A stretch of DNA of 52,134 nucleotides from Pisciglobus halotolerans (GTDB lineage Bacteria > Bacillota > Bacilli > Lactobacillales > Carnobacteriaceae): the NCBI RefSeq assembly GCF_900113675.1, contig NZ_FOQE01000014.1, positions 1-52,134 on the forward strand, read 5' to 3'. This document shows positions 1 to 40,165 of this stretch, piece by piece. The notes under the pieces are model-generated. The model was not told the DNA's origin. It made no database searches and was given only the letters and a program-made list of their open reading frames with translations. The first letter of the stretch is position 1. Every line of letters starts with the position of its first letter. The translations under genes and the position numbers were made by a program.

Positions 1-42
1 TTCATGATATCTTTTACCAATATCTATACCAACAAAAAACAT
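1..42 (-). CDS. IS110-family transposase, N-terminal fragment cut by window edge
   Basis: Read on the minus strand from 42, an ATG opens a frame that runs off the window: MFFVGIDIGKRYHE. The VGIDIGK pattern is the usual start of IS110-family DEDD recombinases, where the Asp is the first acidic residue of the RuvC-like catalytic site. A purine-rich AGGCAGGTG lies about 6 bases upstream of the ATG. Only 14 codons are visible, so subgroup and integrity cannot be judged. The long non-coding stretch upstream of the gene fits the IS110 subgroup rather than IS1111, whose long end lies downstream. The main alternative would be a chance match, but the structured region behind it argues against that. 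Confidence 0.7.
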   Translation of the reverse strand, partial: MFFVGIDIGKRYHE

Positions 43-69
43 AAAGAACACCTGCCTTATAAAATTTTA

Positions 70-231
70 GATAAAGGTTATCCTCTCTGCTTTACGAAAC
101 ATACAACCTCGTTCGATATGCGACAACCATGTGCCATCCAGCTCATTCGTATATTATTCGTAAAGAAGAGGTGTCAGTCTGTGCGACGAAGACAAGGCTC
201 CAAGGATGCGAACTACAACCTCTATCTGTAC
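70..231 (-). ncRNA. Candidate IS110 bridge RNA
   Basis: Transcribed toward the transposase, this stretch can fold into two successive stem-loops with internal loops, the known layout of IS110/IS621 bridge RNAs (target-binding then donor-binding loop). Stem 1 pairs 218-223 with 167-172 (AGAGGT/ACCTCT). Stem 2 pairs 157-165 with 90-98 (nine perfect base pairs), with an inner stem 147-154/116-123 (7 of 8 pairs) and a 17-nt internal loop at 99-115. Loop 1 contains CGCATCCT (plus-strand 203-210) and loop 2 contains ACGAGG. A TATAAT box lies just upstream at 243-238 on the minus strand. Ends are estimates. Confidence 0.5.
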
Positions 232-237
232 AAATAA

Positions 238-243
238 ATTATA
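238..243 (-). promoter_or_regulatory. -10 box for the putative bridge RNA
   Basis: On the minus strand the hexamer is a perfect TATAAT, placed 7-12 bases before the estimated RNA start near 231. No good -35 box is seen at the expected 17-base distance. A 12-bp palindrome TCTCAAATGAGA (244-255) adjoins it and may be an operator. Confidence 0.35.
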
Positions 244-315
244 TCTCAAATGAGAGACATAATGATTTAAAAAGTTAACAAATACGTATATTTATTAACT
301 AACTATATTATACGA

Positions 316-440
316 GGATGCGGAGAAAGTTCGAAAAAGCAAGACCGTCATCGGAAGCACTGTTGCCGTTCCGGCAAAGTGTAGCATGTCTCTAAGCGAT
401 TAAAATCGCAAGAGCCATGACAATGCGGAGCGAGGTCGAT
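316..440 (+). repeat. Dispersed repeat, two modules (E and F) beside the IS110 end
   Basis: Module E begins GGATGCGGAGAAAG at 316. Module F begins with the variant CAATGCGGAGCGAGG at 421. Both border motifs recur in the array at 39657-40165. Module E matches the last module of that array over about 110 bases with scattered substitutions, sharing for example CGGAAGCACTGTTGCCGTTC and GTCTCTAAGCGAT. No reading frame is conserved between copies, so this is a structured non-coding repeat rather than a gene. Confidence 0.65.
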
Positions 441-525
441 AGAAACACAACGTCAACAAGGTAATTGGCACAAAGAGATCTGGATATATAAAAAAATAAG
501 CAATTTAACAAATGGGTGAAAATTT

Positions 526-882
526 ATGGTGAAGAGAGAAGAAATTTTTGATTTCGTTAAAGTAAAGTATCACGTAACACCTGATTATCCTTGGGAAACC
601 TATCCTAACTATGCAGCTTTAAGACATTAGAATAATGAGAAATGGTTTGGTTTAGTCATGAATGTATCTAGTGATAAAATTGGTTTAAATGACAATCAGG
701 AAATTGATATACTAAACTTGAAAACAAGAGAAGAATTGATTGGTCCTTTAAGAAAAAAGGAAGGCATTTATCAGGCTTACCATATGAACAAGTCAAAGTG
801 GGTCAGTGTCAATTTAAATGAGATGAAATCTGTTGATAGTATTAAAGAATTGATTGATGAAAGTTATGAGCTGACAAGTTAG
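526..882 (+). pseudogene. MmcQ/YjbR-family protein, interrupted by in-frame TAG
   Basis: From ATG 526 the frame reads MVKREEIFDF..., then meets TAG at 628-630 (codon 35), and continues in the same frame to 882. The pieces together give a normal-length YjbR-type protein (about 118 residues). Family landmarks lie on both sides of the stop: YPNYAALRH before it, NNEKWFGLVMNVS directly after it, and ILNLK and AYHMNKSKWV further on. YjbR-family proteins have a double wing-like fold thought to bind DNA; their role is unclear. ATG 658 could allow a 74-residue C-terminal fragment, but no convincing ribosome binding site precedes it. A single-base change or a sequencing error would both explain the stop. 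Confidence 0.8.
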
Positions 883-14724: not shown

Positions 14725-16659
14725 ATGAGCCGTTCATCCAACATGAAAAAAACGAAGAAACAATTAGAACAAGAACTCTACTTATTCAATACGGGTCAGT
14801 ATTTTGACAGCTACCTTACTTTTGGTTGTCATGAAGAAACGAGTCAAGAAGAAGAAGGTTTTCGGTTCACTGTTTGGGCTCCTCATGCGAGAAGTGTTTC
14901 GCTTGTTTCTGACTGCACAAACTGGGAAGAAGGTCTGCCGATGGAAAAGATCGATCAAACCGGTGTGTGGACAGTATTTTGTAAAGAGGCTGAAGAAGGA
15001 CAGCCCTATAAATATCGGATCGAACAGGCAAACGGAACGGTCAAATTAAAGATCGATCCATATGCTTTTGCCTTTGAGGTCAGACCGAAAGAGGCTTCTG
15101 TGATCAAAGCCCTTCCCGAAAGAAAATGGAAAGATGGCTTGTGGATGGCCAATAAAAAACGCTATCCGATTTATGAGCGTCCTTTGAATATTTATGAAGT
15201 TCACATGAGCTCATGGAAACAGCATGAAGATGGTTCTTGGTATACCTTTCCTGAGTTGCAAGCTGAACTGATCCCCTATGCAAAAGAAATGGGCTATACC
15301 CACATCGAATTCCTTCCCTTAGTCGAACACCCGCTAGATGCCTCCTGGGGTTATCAAGCAACAGGCTACTATGCTCTTTCTTCAAAATTTGGAACAATAG
15401 AAGAGTTTCAAGATTTTGTCGAAGCTGCTCACCAAGCTGGCATTGGGGTCATCATGGATTGGGTGCCGAGTCATTTTAATCGCAACAATTACGGGATGGC
15501 TTATTACGACGGAACACCGCAGTTTGAGTATCAAGACAGCAATCGTGCACAAAACTTTCGTTGGGGTACATTGAACTTTGATTTAGGAAAACCTCAAGTC
15601 CACAGTTTTTTGATTTCGAATGCGTTCTTTTGGCTAAATCAATGTCATCTTGATGGTCTGCGTGTGGATGCGGTCAGCAATATGCTGTATCTCGATTATG
15701 ACGAAGGCGAATGGACACCAAATGAAGATGGCAGCAATCATAATCGGGAAGGCGTCGAATTTATTCAGAAAATGAATACGGTTATTTTTGAGCGGCATCC
15801 TGATGTCTTGATGATCGCTGAAGAAAGCACCTCCTGGGGAAATGTGACGGGACCTGTAGATAAGGGCGGCTTAGGATTTAATTATAAATGGAACATGGGT
15901 TGGATGAATGATACATTGCGTTTCTTTGAAATGGATCCCTTATTTAGAAAAGATCATTTTGATTTGATCACTTTTTCATTCATGTACATGTTCAATGAAA
16001 ACTTTTTGCTTCCTTTCTCTCACGATGAAGTGGTCCATGGAAAGAAATCGTTGATGCATAAAATGTTTGGTGACCGGTACAACCAATTTGCTGGTTTGCG
16101 AACGTTGGAAGCTTACCACATGACCTTTCCTGGGAAAAAGCTCAACTTTATGAGCAATGAATATGGACAATTTTTAGAATGGCGTTTTTATTCTGGGTTA
16201 GAGTGGATCAGCTTAGAAGATGAGAAAAATAAAGCTCATCTAGAATATATGAAAACATTGAACCATCTCTACAAAGAAAATCGCGCTTTGTGGGAAGTGG
16301 ACCATGATCATAGCGGGATAGAGATTTTAGATGCGGATAACCGTGCCGAAACGATTTTATCCTTTATCCGCAAAGGGAAAAAAGCTAGAGATTTCTTGAT
16401 CGTGATCTGCAATTTTGTTCCAGTAGAGCGAAAAGGTTTCCGAGTAGGCGTTCCTTATGCAGGCATGTATGAAGAATTGCTGAATACTGAGATGGAAGAA
16501 TTTGGCGGTACATGGACAGCAGGACAAGGTGTTTTGAAGAGTGAAGAGATTCCTCATGACCACCAGCAACATTCTGTCGAGCTGATCATTCCGGCTTTAA
16601 GTACAGTAATTTTAAAACCAAAACGTGTATATGGCGTACCAAAAGACAAAAAGAAATAG
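14725..16659 (+). CDS. glgB: 1,4-alpha-glucan branching enzyme
   Basis: The enzyme makes alpha-1,6 branches in glycogen. An N-terminal CBM48 domain (about residues 40-125) is followed by a GH13 barrel. Catalytic regions are visible: DWVPSHF (245-251), GLRVDAVSNM with nucleophile Asp315, AEEST with the acid Glu near 366, and FSHDEVVHG with Asp434. A C-terminal all-beta domain ends the protein. Length (644 aa) fits the short Bacillota form without the extra N-terminal domain. The ATG has AGAGGGGGA 8 bases upstream. It is the first gene of glgBCDAP and ends in TAG. Confidence 0.97.
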   Translation: MSRSSNMKKTKKQLEQELYLFNTGQYFDSYLTFGCHEETSQEEEGFRFTVWAPHARSVSLVSDCTNWEEGLPMEKIDQTGVWTVFCKEAEEGQPYKYRIEQANGTVKLKIDPYAFAFEVRPKEASVIKALPERKWKDGLWMANKKRYPIYERPLNIYEVHMSSWKQHEDGSWYTFPELQAELIPYAKEMGYTHIEFLPLVEHPLDASWGYQATGYYALSSKFGTIEEFQDFVEAAHQAGIGVIMDWVPSHFNRNNYGMAYYDGTPQFEYQDSNRAQNFRWGTLNFDLGKPQVHSFLISNAFFWLNQCHLDGLRVDAVSNMLYLDYDEGEWTPNEDGSNHNREGVEFIQKMNTVIFERHPDVLMIAEESTSWGNVTGPVDKGGLGFNYKWNMGWMNDTLRFFEMDPLFRKDHFDLITFSFMYMFNENFLLPFSHDEVVHGKKSLMHKMFGDRYNQFAGLRTLEAYHMTFPGKKLNFMSNEYGQFLEWRFYSGLEWISLEDEKNKAHLEYMKTLNHLYKENRALWEVDHDHSGIEILDADNRAETILSFIRKGKKARDFLIVICNFVPVERKGFRVGVPYAGMYEELLNTEMEEFGGTWTAGQGVLKSEEIPHDHQQHSVELIIPALSTVILKPKRVYGVPKDKKK

Positions 16660-39670: not shown

Positions 39671-40165
39671 CTCTGCAAGAGAACAAGCACTAACGAAGGA
39701 ACAACGCAAGCAACCCAGCGAAGCGGTTGTGCGGATGTTGCAAGTTAGGCGGAGATCTCTGGGGAGCGCAACTCAACAACCAGGATACGGAGAAAGCCTG
39801 AAAGAGTCACAGCAAAAACAGGAAGTTGTTGAAGAGAGTAGCGGAGCGCGCATCAAAACAACTTATCTTTTTTGCAAAGACTCTGGCTTTCGCAGTTCAA
39901 TTAAAACGAGGATGCGGAGTGAGGTTGATAGGGGCGACAGGAAAATGAAAAAGCGCGGCGCAGAGCATCCCGCGCATGCGAGCGACTTTTGAATTTTACC
40001 CGAGCCACTACCTCGCGCAGCTCAACTAAAAATAGGATACGGAGAAAGCCTGAAATAACACAGAATGAAAAAGCAAAATCGTTATCGGAAGCACTGTTGC
40101 CGTTCCATCCAGCAAAGTATATCCTGTCTCTAAGCGATGAAAATGCAAGAGTCATGACAATATAA
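39657..40165 (+). repeat. Array of four ~126-bp structured modules (A-D)
   Basis: Modules begin at 39657, 39783, 39910 and 40035, each with GGATRYGGAG or close to it, at steps of 126, 127 and 125 bases. Each of the first three ends in GCARYTCAA(C/T)(A/T)A before the next module. B and D share GGATACGGAGAAAGCCTGAAA; C resembles module F near 430 (GCGGAGtGAGGTTGATAG). The interiors differ but are self-complementary, for instance AAGTTGTT/AACAACTT and GAAAGCC/GGCTTTC in B, and GCGCGG/CCGCGC in C. GC content is above that of the surroundings. No conserved protein frame. Confidence 0.75.

Follow-up and report, generated by a model that had tools for sequence, protein, structure and literature searches.

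An IS110-group insertion sequence in Pisciglobus halotolerans with a candidate bridge RNA whose left target guide very probably explains its junctions

The contig of P. halotolerans analysed here (the window, i.e., the whole stretch of 52,134 nucleotides) opens inside the left end (LE) of an insertion sequence that abuts a hairpin repeat of the host. The initial annotation had noticed that two loops of a putative RNA encoded in this end match the insertion junction, which raises the question of whether these matches are the address by which the element recognises its target. Since the element continues off the contig, the guide match cannot be judged from the window alone, and we compared it with further copies in the same genome and with relatives in others. 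Considering these comparisons together, the locus is very probably an IS110-group insertion sequence with a candidate bridge RNA in its left end, the left target guide (LTG) of which explains the element's junctions. The element and the layout of its guides are of a known kind; the novelty lies in the particular repeat, in a right guide that lacks a match and, most of all, in the Shine-Dalgarno guides carried by relatives, a target class that we did not find described. The features of the window are as follows.

1–316, minus strand: left end of the IS110-group element including the CT core, running off the contig at base 1
1–51, minus strand: first codons of the DEDD/Ser transposase, starting with GTG at 51 or ATG at 42
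69–232, minus strand: candidate bridge RNA, a 164-nt region aligned with relatives, with a predicted fold and covarying stems
107–112, minus strand: right donor guide (RDG) ACGAG plus handshake base G, loop 2
138–143, minus strand: left donor guide (LDG) AGCTGG, loop 2, the same as in the right end (RE), AGCTGGT-CT
177–178, minus strand: putative handshake bases AC, loop 1, complementary to the terminal GT of the RE, their role assigned by analogy with IS621
179–187, minus strand: right target guide (RTG) GTCGCACAG, loop 1, predicting CT-GTGCGAC and unmatched by the element's right flanks
203–210, minus strand: LTG CGCATC plus core CT, loop 1
307–312, minus strand: TATAAT, which forms a promoter-like pair with TTGACT of the RE at 17 nt in the joined circle
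315–316, minus strand: CT core, found at both element ends and as a single CT in the empty PTS site
317–322, plus strand: left target GATGCG, i.e., CGCATC in the sense of the element
315–446, plus strand: hairpin-repeat module in a shortened form, beside the insertion
39782–40161, plus strand: array of the same module family, without the element

Extent, copies and boundary of the element

Read on the minus strand, the junction in the window consists of the target CGCATC, the core CT (316–315) and then the left end CGTATAATATAG... Elsewhere in the genome, contig C85 carries a sequence 99% identical to positions 1–327, and about 95 bases of the element's LE stand at two more contig ends, C88 and C78; between copies, the left ends are 99–100% identical. 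Right ends were found on C85, C24, C34 and C72. Based on the four left and four right ends compared, the element is 1,682 bp long counting both CT cores (L002), and the genome holds one complete copy, on C85. The four LE junctions carry CGCATC three times and CGCGTC once, each before CTCGTATAATATAG, while the four RE junctions all end in TAGCTGGT-CT. Before the core, the left flanks read ...TTTCTCCGCATC in the window, ...CTCGTTCCGCATC on C88, ...CGAAAGCGCATC on C78 and ...CTTCTTCGCGTC on C85; after it, the right flanks read TTTAGTTGAG on C85, which is a module end, ATTAGTATCC on C24, GGTGTTTTTA on C34 and ATCGAAAATA on C72.

The boundary could be fixed to the base: besides the two ends and the CT core, an empty site was recovered. 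Splicing the flank on C34 to the flank on C85 through a single AG gives an uninterrupted frame of 556 codons for a PTS gene (...KKFDLKTPGREEETEES...), a paralogue of which has KTPGRE at the same point. These two flanks, the right one of C34 and the left one of C85, are thus halves of the same gene, which makes the boundary exact, leaves a single core and assigns CGCGTC to the host. Insertion at this site took place at a short core without further target duplication, the empty site holding a single CT. It also follows that C85 (G000:C85, L011) joins two ends of different insertions, which arose by assembly collapse or by recombination between copies; left and right ends can be paired for this one insertion, and the others stop at contig edges. 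A longer element, with CGCATC as part of its end, was considered and rejected, those bases being host coding sequence in the PTS copy.

In the complete copy, the transposase is an open frame of 404 aa (L002:337–1551) with the domains PF01548 (143.5 bits) and PF02371 (86.5 bits), both above the cut-off, and it is the only match to either family in the genome. Among the PDB sequences it matches ISCro4 (E 1.4e-27) and IS621 (E 1e-26), and by eye its D, E, DxxD and S positions line up with those of ISCro4. A structured non-coding RNA region lies upstream of the transposase gene, between the LE and the gene start, as in the IS110 group; in IS1111 elements, the non-coding region is usually downstream of the gene. 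Searches of plasmid records gave no match to the element DNA and none to a pair of modules. With the transposase, 31 plasmid records were matched, the best being 62.5% identical (Salimicrobium, L203), in an element with a GCCCC-type guide and target. Rfam searches of L002, L096, L103 and L106 gave one match over the cut-off, all others being below it; this match, L17DE in L106, concerns neither the element nor the module.

The candidate bridge RNA, its guides and the target repeat

The minus strand of window positions 60–240 is predicted to fold at −55.8 kcal/mol, compared with −38.9 ± 3.6 kcal/mol for shuffled sequences (z −4.69, better than 200 of 200 shuffles), and in the consensus derived from an alignment of 18 elements, 11 of 24 pairs have changes on both sides. 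In loop 1, the LTG is accompanied by another variable segment, the RTG, which ends in AG. The positions and letters given by the initial annotation are all correct. Within window positions 1–400, AGGATGCG (CGCATCCT in the RNA) is found only at 203–210 and 315–322, and CCTCGT, the complement of ACGAGG in loop 2, occurs on the plus strand only at 107–112, with minus-strand positions 317–312 reading CCTCGT. The extent of the two matches had to be corrected. Two of the eight bases proposed for loop 1 are the shared core, so that the target-specific match is six bases long; of ACGAGG, which had been proposed to pair with the donor, the first five bases do so, but the sixth corresponds to the 'handshake' base of IS621 and meets the target instead.

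The expected identity of the LTG with left target plus core is borne out at all four left junctions, exactly at three and with one mismatch at the fourth. Both donor guides match the element's own ends, as in IS621-type elements, the RDG ACGAG being the complement of CTCGT at the left end. In the relatives L039 and L057, an RDG reading ACAAG is paired with an end reading CTTGT. The RDG of another relative, L079, has its core-pairing G changed to A (ACGAA) and is possibly impaired as a donor guide. When the RE is joined to the LE, the joint reads TTGACT-17-TATAAT, a promoter-like pattern of the sigma-70 type; among the relatives, 18 of 23 rows have a matching pattern, or 15 of 19 once duplicate loci are removed, and it is missing in L025/L169, L027, L031 and L038. 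This suggests a mechanism in which the excised circle would rebuild a promoter across the RE–LE joint and transcribe the RNA from it.

The right half of the address departs from the pattern of IS621-type elements, in which the RTG is complementary to the core together with the right target. Here the core fits, but GTCGCACAG predicts GTGC after the core and the four right flanks read TTTA, ATTA, GGTG and ATCG, i.e., one of four bases matched in each, which is no better than chance. In IS621, only two right-target bases beyond the core are paired, according to the available text of PMC11208158, and over these first two bases one of two is matched at each of the four sites. Thus, the right half of the address looks unused or drifted. 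In the relatives, the RTG matches the right target on average, with only one of four bases in L042 and L079. We conclude that the misfit is a property of the present address and not of the class of the element, membership in which rests on the other features described. The misfit at four of four right flanks also raises the question of whether the guide is still fully working, the copies being relics or the right half of the address having decayed. We consider this improbable, although it is the likeliest of the alternatives: the transposase frame of 404 aa is open, the left ends are 99–100% identical between copies, and the left targets match the guide, so the left half worked at the time of insertion. 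For the copies on C88 and C78, the assembly lacks the RNA.

The target in the window belongs to a family of dispersed modules. Those with a tail are 120–123 nt long (nine cut out), begin with AGGATGCG(G/A)AG, end with CAGCTCAACTA and stand in tandem; some begin with ATG TGA. By eye, there are at least four module types with unrelated stem sequences and a similar long hairpin, and nine modules, out of ten examples chosen, fold at −40.2 to −48.4 kcal/mol, as raw energies without a shuffle control. Weaker relatives of the module were found in 10 of 17 other genomes of the family searched. A literature search with few subscription papers or preprints in its scope found nothing on this module; the EFAR repeats of Enterococcus faecalis are, we presume, a possible likeness. 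In the arrays of L115, L152 and L160, the few bases that separate modules at times duplicate those immediately preceding the first module (AGAAAA, AGAAT, AAAACA), as if modules may have been inserted or amplified with a short duplication. Window positions 526–882 hold a remnant of a YjbR-family gene, in which a 74-aa ORF (658–882) matches only profile positions 32–88 of PF04237 and an in-frame stop separates the upstream part from it.

The genome contains 77 copies of AGGATGCG, compared with 14 of its backwards control, and 76 of these 77 sites were examined with their surroundings, the guide copy on C85 being left out. With the guide copy at window position 203 also set aside, a simple pattern identifies 42 of 75 sites as module heads and 33 as other sites; the 75 include three junctions of the element itself. 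The initial annotation had proposed recognition of the module border GGATGCGGAG. What is recognised is CGCATC-CT and not that border, and only two of the four left junctions (window and C88) lie in a module. Likewise, the predicted sharing of core and GGATGCG flank among copies was confirmed for the CT core, but the match at C78 is limited to GATGCG, and the C85/C34 insertion lies within the PTS gene. Given that 42 of 75 sites are module heads, two of four junctions in modules require no additional preference, and a preference for modules beyond the six-base match lacks support here.

The first modules of the arrays mostly lie at gene ends. Counting stop codons that close an open frame of at least 70 codons, 17 of 23 first-in-array heads begin 1–10 nt after the first base of a stop codon, as against 1 of 33 non-module AGGATGCG sites and 0 of 31 internal heads; among the six other first-in-array heads, two are junctions of the element (window and C88). 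The guide would therefore offer many landing sites at gene ends at which an insertion could spare the gene: the sites are many because the genome is rich in repeats beginning with AGGATGCG, the first of an array usually lying at a stop codon, and a stop codon that draws on the AG of the core stays intact, as insertion leaves both core bases on either side.

Covariation of guides and targets in relatives

Scanning GTDB genomes with the transposase gave 65 loci. The aligned set comprises elements about 55–67% identical to the query, and most of their upstream regions align from LE to gene, L028 being an exception; most loci below about 50% identity fell outside the analysis, their ends not being recognised by the patterns used. 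The left-target test also leaves out L028, the left end of which was not recognised, and L062 and L064, in which the guide was not recognised. L169, L170, L172 and L173 have the same left target and guide as L025, L032, L034 and L035 and were merged with them in site counts. Loci of four genomes assigned to the order of the query (G198, G078, G043 and G232) have guides and targets identical to those of the Vagococcus elongatus, Atopostipes, Alkalibacterium and Falseniella loci, in line with a placement of the query in the Lactobacillales.

Across this set, the left flank changes with the LTG; for example, CACCTC-CT goes with the guide CACCTCCT and CTGCG-CT with CTGCGCT. In shuffles, which leave some relatedness between elements in place, none of 20,000 was as good as the pairing of each guide with its own left target in 20 rows, at 4–8 bases, and the 27 distinct sites with 14 guide classes match at 5.02 of six bases, compared with 2.59 when shuffled (0 of 20,000). 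For the RTG and the right target, 0–1 of 20,000 shuffles were as good in 18 rows, and 0–6 of 20,000 with 12 distinct guides. Four of the 27 sites (L029, L033, L034/L172 and L037) give a good guide fit only with one extra target C bulged; this C stands next to the core, as if bulged in the pairing. In all 19 relatives whose left target could be read, and also in the query, the nucleotide that follows the RDG is complementary to the final base of the target, a handshake pairing as described for IS621 in the available text of PMC11208158. It has two states only, and its covariation may thus reflect a single evolutionary change.

These results bear on the remaining alternatives. The transposase itself might read CGCATC or the DNA hairpin of the repeat, the CGCATCCT copy in the LE being an internal binding site. 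The strong hairpins formed by the nine module copies would fit such a reading, as would the fact that REP and attC are known targets of IS110/IS1111 elements (PMC1525189 and PMC11187229, available portions). We regard it as very unlikely, given that the C78 and PTS sites are not modules, that elements with closely related transposases carry different guides, which follow the target, and that the same layout is an RNA guide in IS621, as far as the accessible part of PMC11208158 describes it. That both matches are a chance coincidence of short motifs is hardly credible and was rejected: two of the eight bases are indeed the core and AGGATGCG is common in the genome, but three junctions have the same six bases and the fourth has five of them (the three junctions beyond the window carrying CGCATC, CGCATC and CGCGTC before CT), and no shuffle in 20,000 equalled the guide–target covariation of the relatives, in agreement with the earlier judgement that two matches at one junction are less likely to be chance.

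Repeat-reading and anti-Shine-Dalgarno-like guides

One Bacillaceae branch of the relatives, with two sub-branches, has its insertions in other dispersed repeats. In patterns picked after the flanks were seen, CGCTTTCCGNGGG, which spans the core and the right flank, occurs 50, 13, 113, 118 and 14 times in five host genomes, with 0 for the backwards controls; GACTTGANTTCGANATA, a right-flank motif counted with up to one mismatch, has 75, 25 and 6 occurrences in three host genomes versus 1, 0 and 3, the enrichment being weak in the third.

A third class of guides, which was unexpected, ends in CTCCT and is thus anti-Shine-Dalgarno-like. It comprises 12 distinct sites with eight guides (L025, L029, L030, L032, L033, L034, L035, L073, L171, L174, L176 and L199), the ends of which were set by the pattern CTCGTA. 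In the sense of the gene, 11 of the 12 targets read AGGAG or AGGGAG, and that of L171 reads AGGAA. At 10 of the 12, a start codon follows 12–16 nt after the first base of the core and opens an ORF of 54 to 572 codons, that of L033 running off the contig and that of L034 starting with TTG; the ORFs of L171 and L174 have only 20 and 11 codons. In the same loci, an ORF of at least 40 codons is so placed at 210 of 841 AGGAG/AGGGAG positions and at 15,124 of 105,936 sampled positions, and at a rate of 25% the binomial chance of 10 of 12 is 4e-5. L064, with its unrecognised guide, has an AGGAG flank before an ORF of 8 codons and, if counted, would make this 10 of 13. The outgroup elements L039 and L057 have guides ending in CTCTCCT and lie 10 and 12 nt before ORFs (at least 137 and 228 codons, respectively); as their core was picked with a Shine-Dalgarno filter and their guides match four of six target bases, they are supporting cases and not independent evidence. 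Nine of the ten downstream ORFs scanned match Pfam families (SUKH, adenine deaminase, GH4, GH127, DUF1831, NikA/MobC, E1-E2 ATPase, prepilin peptidase and glyoxalase), seven of them from residue 11 or earlier, and the 54-aa ORF of L025 has no Pfam match. Because the AG of the core stays on the side of the gene, the Shine-Dalgarno sequence survives the insertion.

In a 23-row tree with a midpoint root, used for drawing only, guides ending in CTCCT are found in an eight-row clade, in the pair L029/L030, which adjoins the Bacillaceae repeat branch, and in L174, which groups with two outgroup rows. The query and the nine rows of the Bacillaceae branch have repeat-reading guides. Long branches lead to the query and to L174, and two changes of guide label were counted, one of them forced by well-supported branches. 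Since the label changes are few, the root is a midpoint and these two branches are long, we infer, rather than observe, an ancestral CTCCT guide, from which the ...ATCCT guide of the query and the Bacillaceae guides would be derived. We tentatively propose, with slightly more to be said against it than for it, that the lineage was ancestrally anti-Shine-Dalgarno (...CTCCT); the Shine-Dalgarno filter applied to L039 and L057 and the small number of label changes lower its probability. The ribosome-binding site of any gene would then be its default site, with AGGAG rebuilt from left target and core, and the query and the Bacillaceae elements would have been re-addressed by few guide changes to dispersed repeats, in the query a hairpin beginning with AGGATGCG at stop codons, placing the lineage on both edges of genes.

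In a literature search with few subscription papers or preprints in its scope, no report of Shine-Dalgarno targeting by IS110 elements was found in the available parts of the sources. The text of PMC11208160 contains neither 'Shine' nor 'ribosome'; in its accessible portions, PMC11187229 uses 'ribosome binding site' a single time, in connection with cloning, and names no Shine-Dalgarno target in its section on targets, and PMC3196728, as far as available, concerns another matter. Overall, the joint covariation of left guide, right guide and handshake base with the flanks gives natural and independent confirmation of bridge-RNA targeting in a lineage of the Bacillota. It also suggests a path of guide evolution from a motif before most genes to repeats specific to one host, and it opens the origin of IS110 target addresses to phylogenetic testing. 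Anti-Shine-Dalgarno guides would make for a natural multi-site integrator that leaves genes translatable.

Among known systems, IS621, an IS110-group element of E. coli that targets REP sequences (PMC11208160 and PMC11208158, available passages) and has a junction promoter (PMC11208160, likewise in part), is the closest in organisation. The likeness, as far as the accessible descriptions go, covers the structured RNA upstream of the gene, the two loops, the LTG/RTG and LDG/RDG pairs, the CT core, the handshake bases, the junction promoter and insertion into dispersed repeats. Unlike IS621, the query has another repeat family and host, a transposase of 404 aa as against a PDB chain of 328 residues, and an RTG that does not fit its right targets. 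According to the available text of PMC1525189 and PMC11187229, ISPpu9, ISPpu10, ISPa11 and other REP-targeting elements likewise land in dispersed extragenic repeats, and the IS110/IS1111 members in ISfinder, as described in the available portion of PMC11187229, likewise have their own short target for each element or close group.
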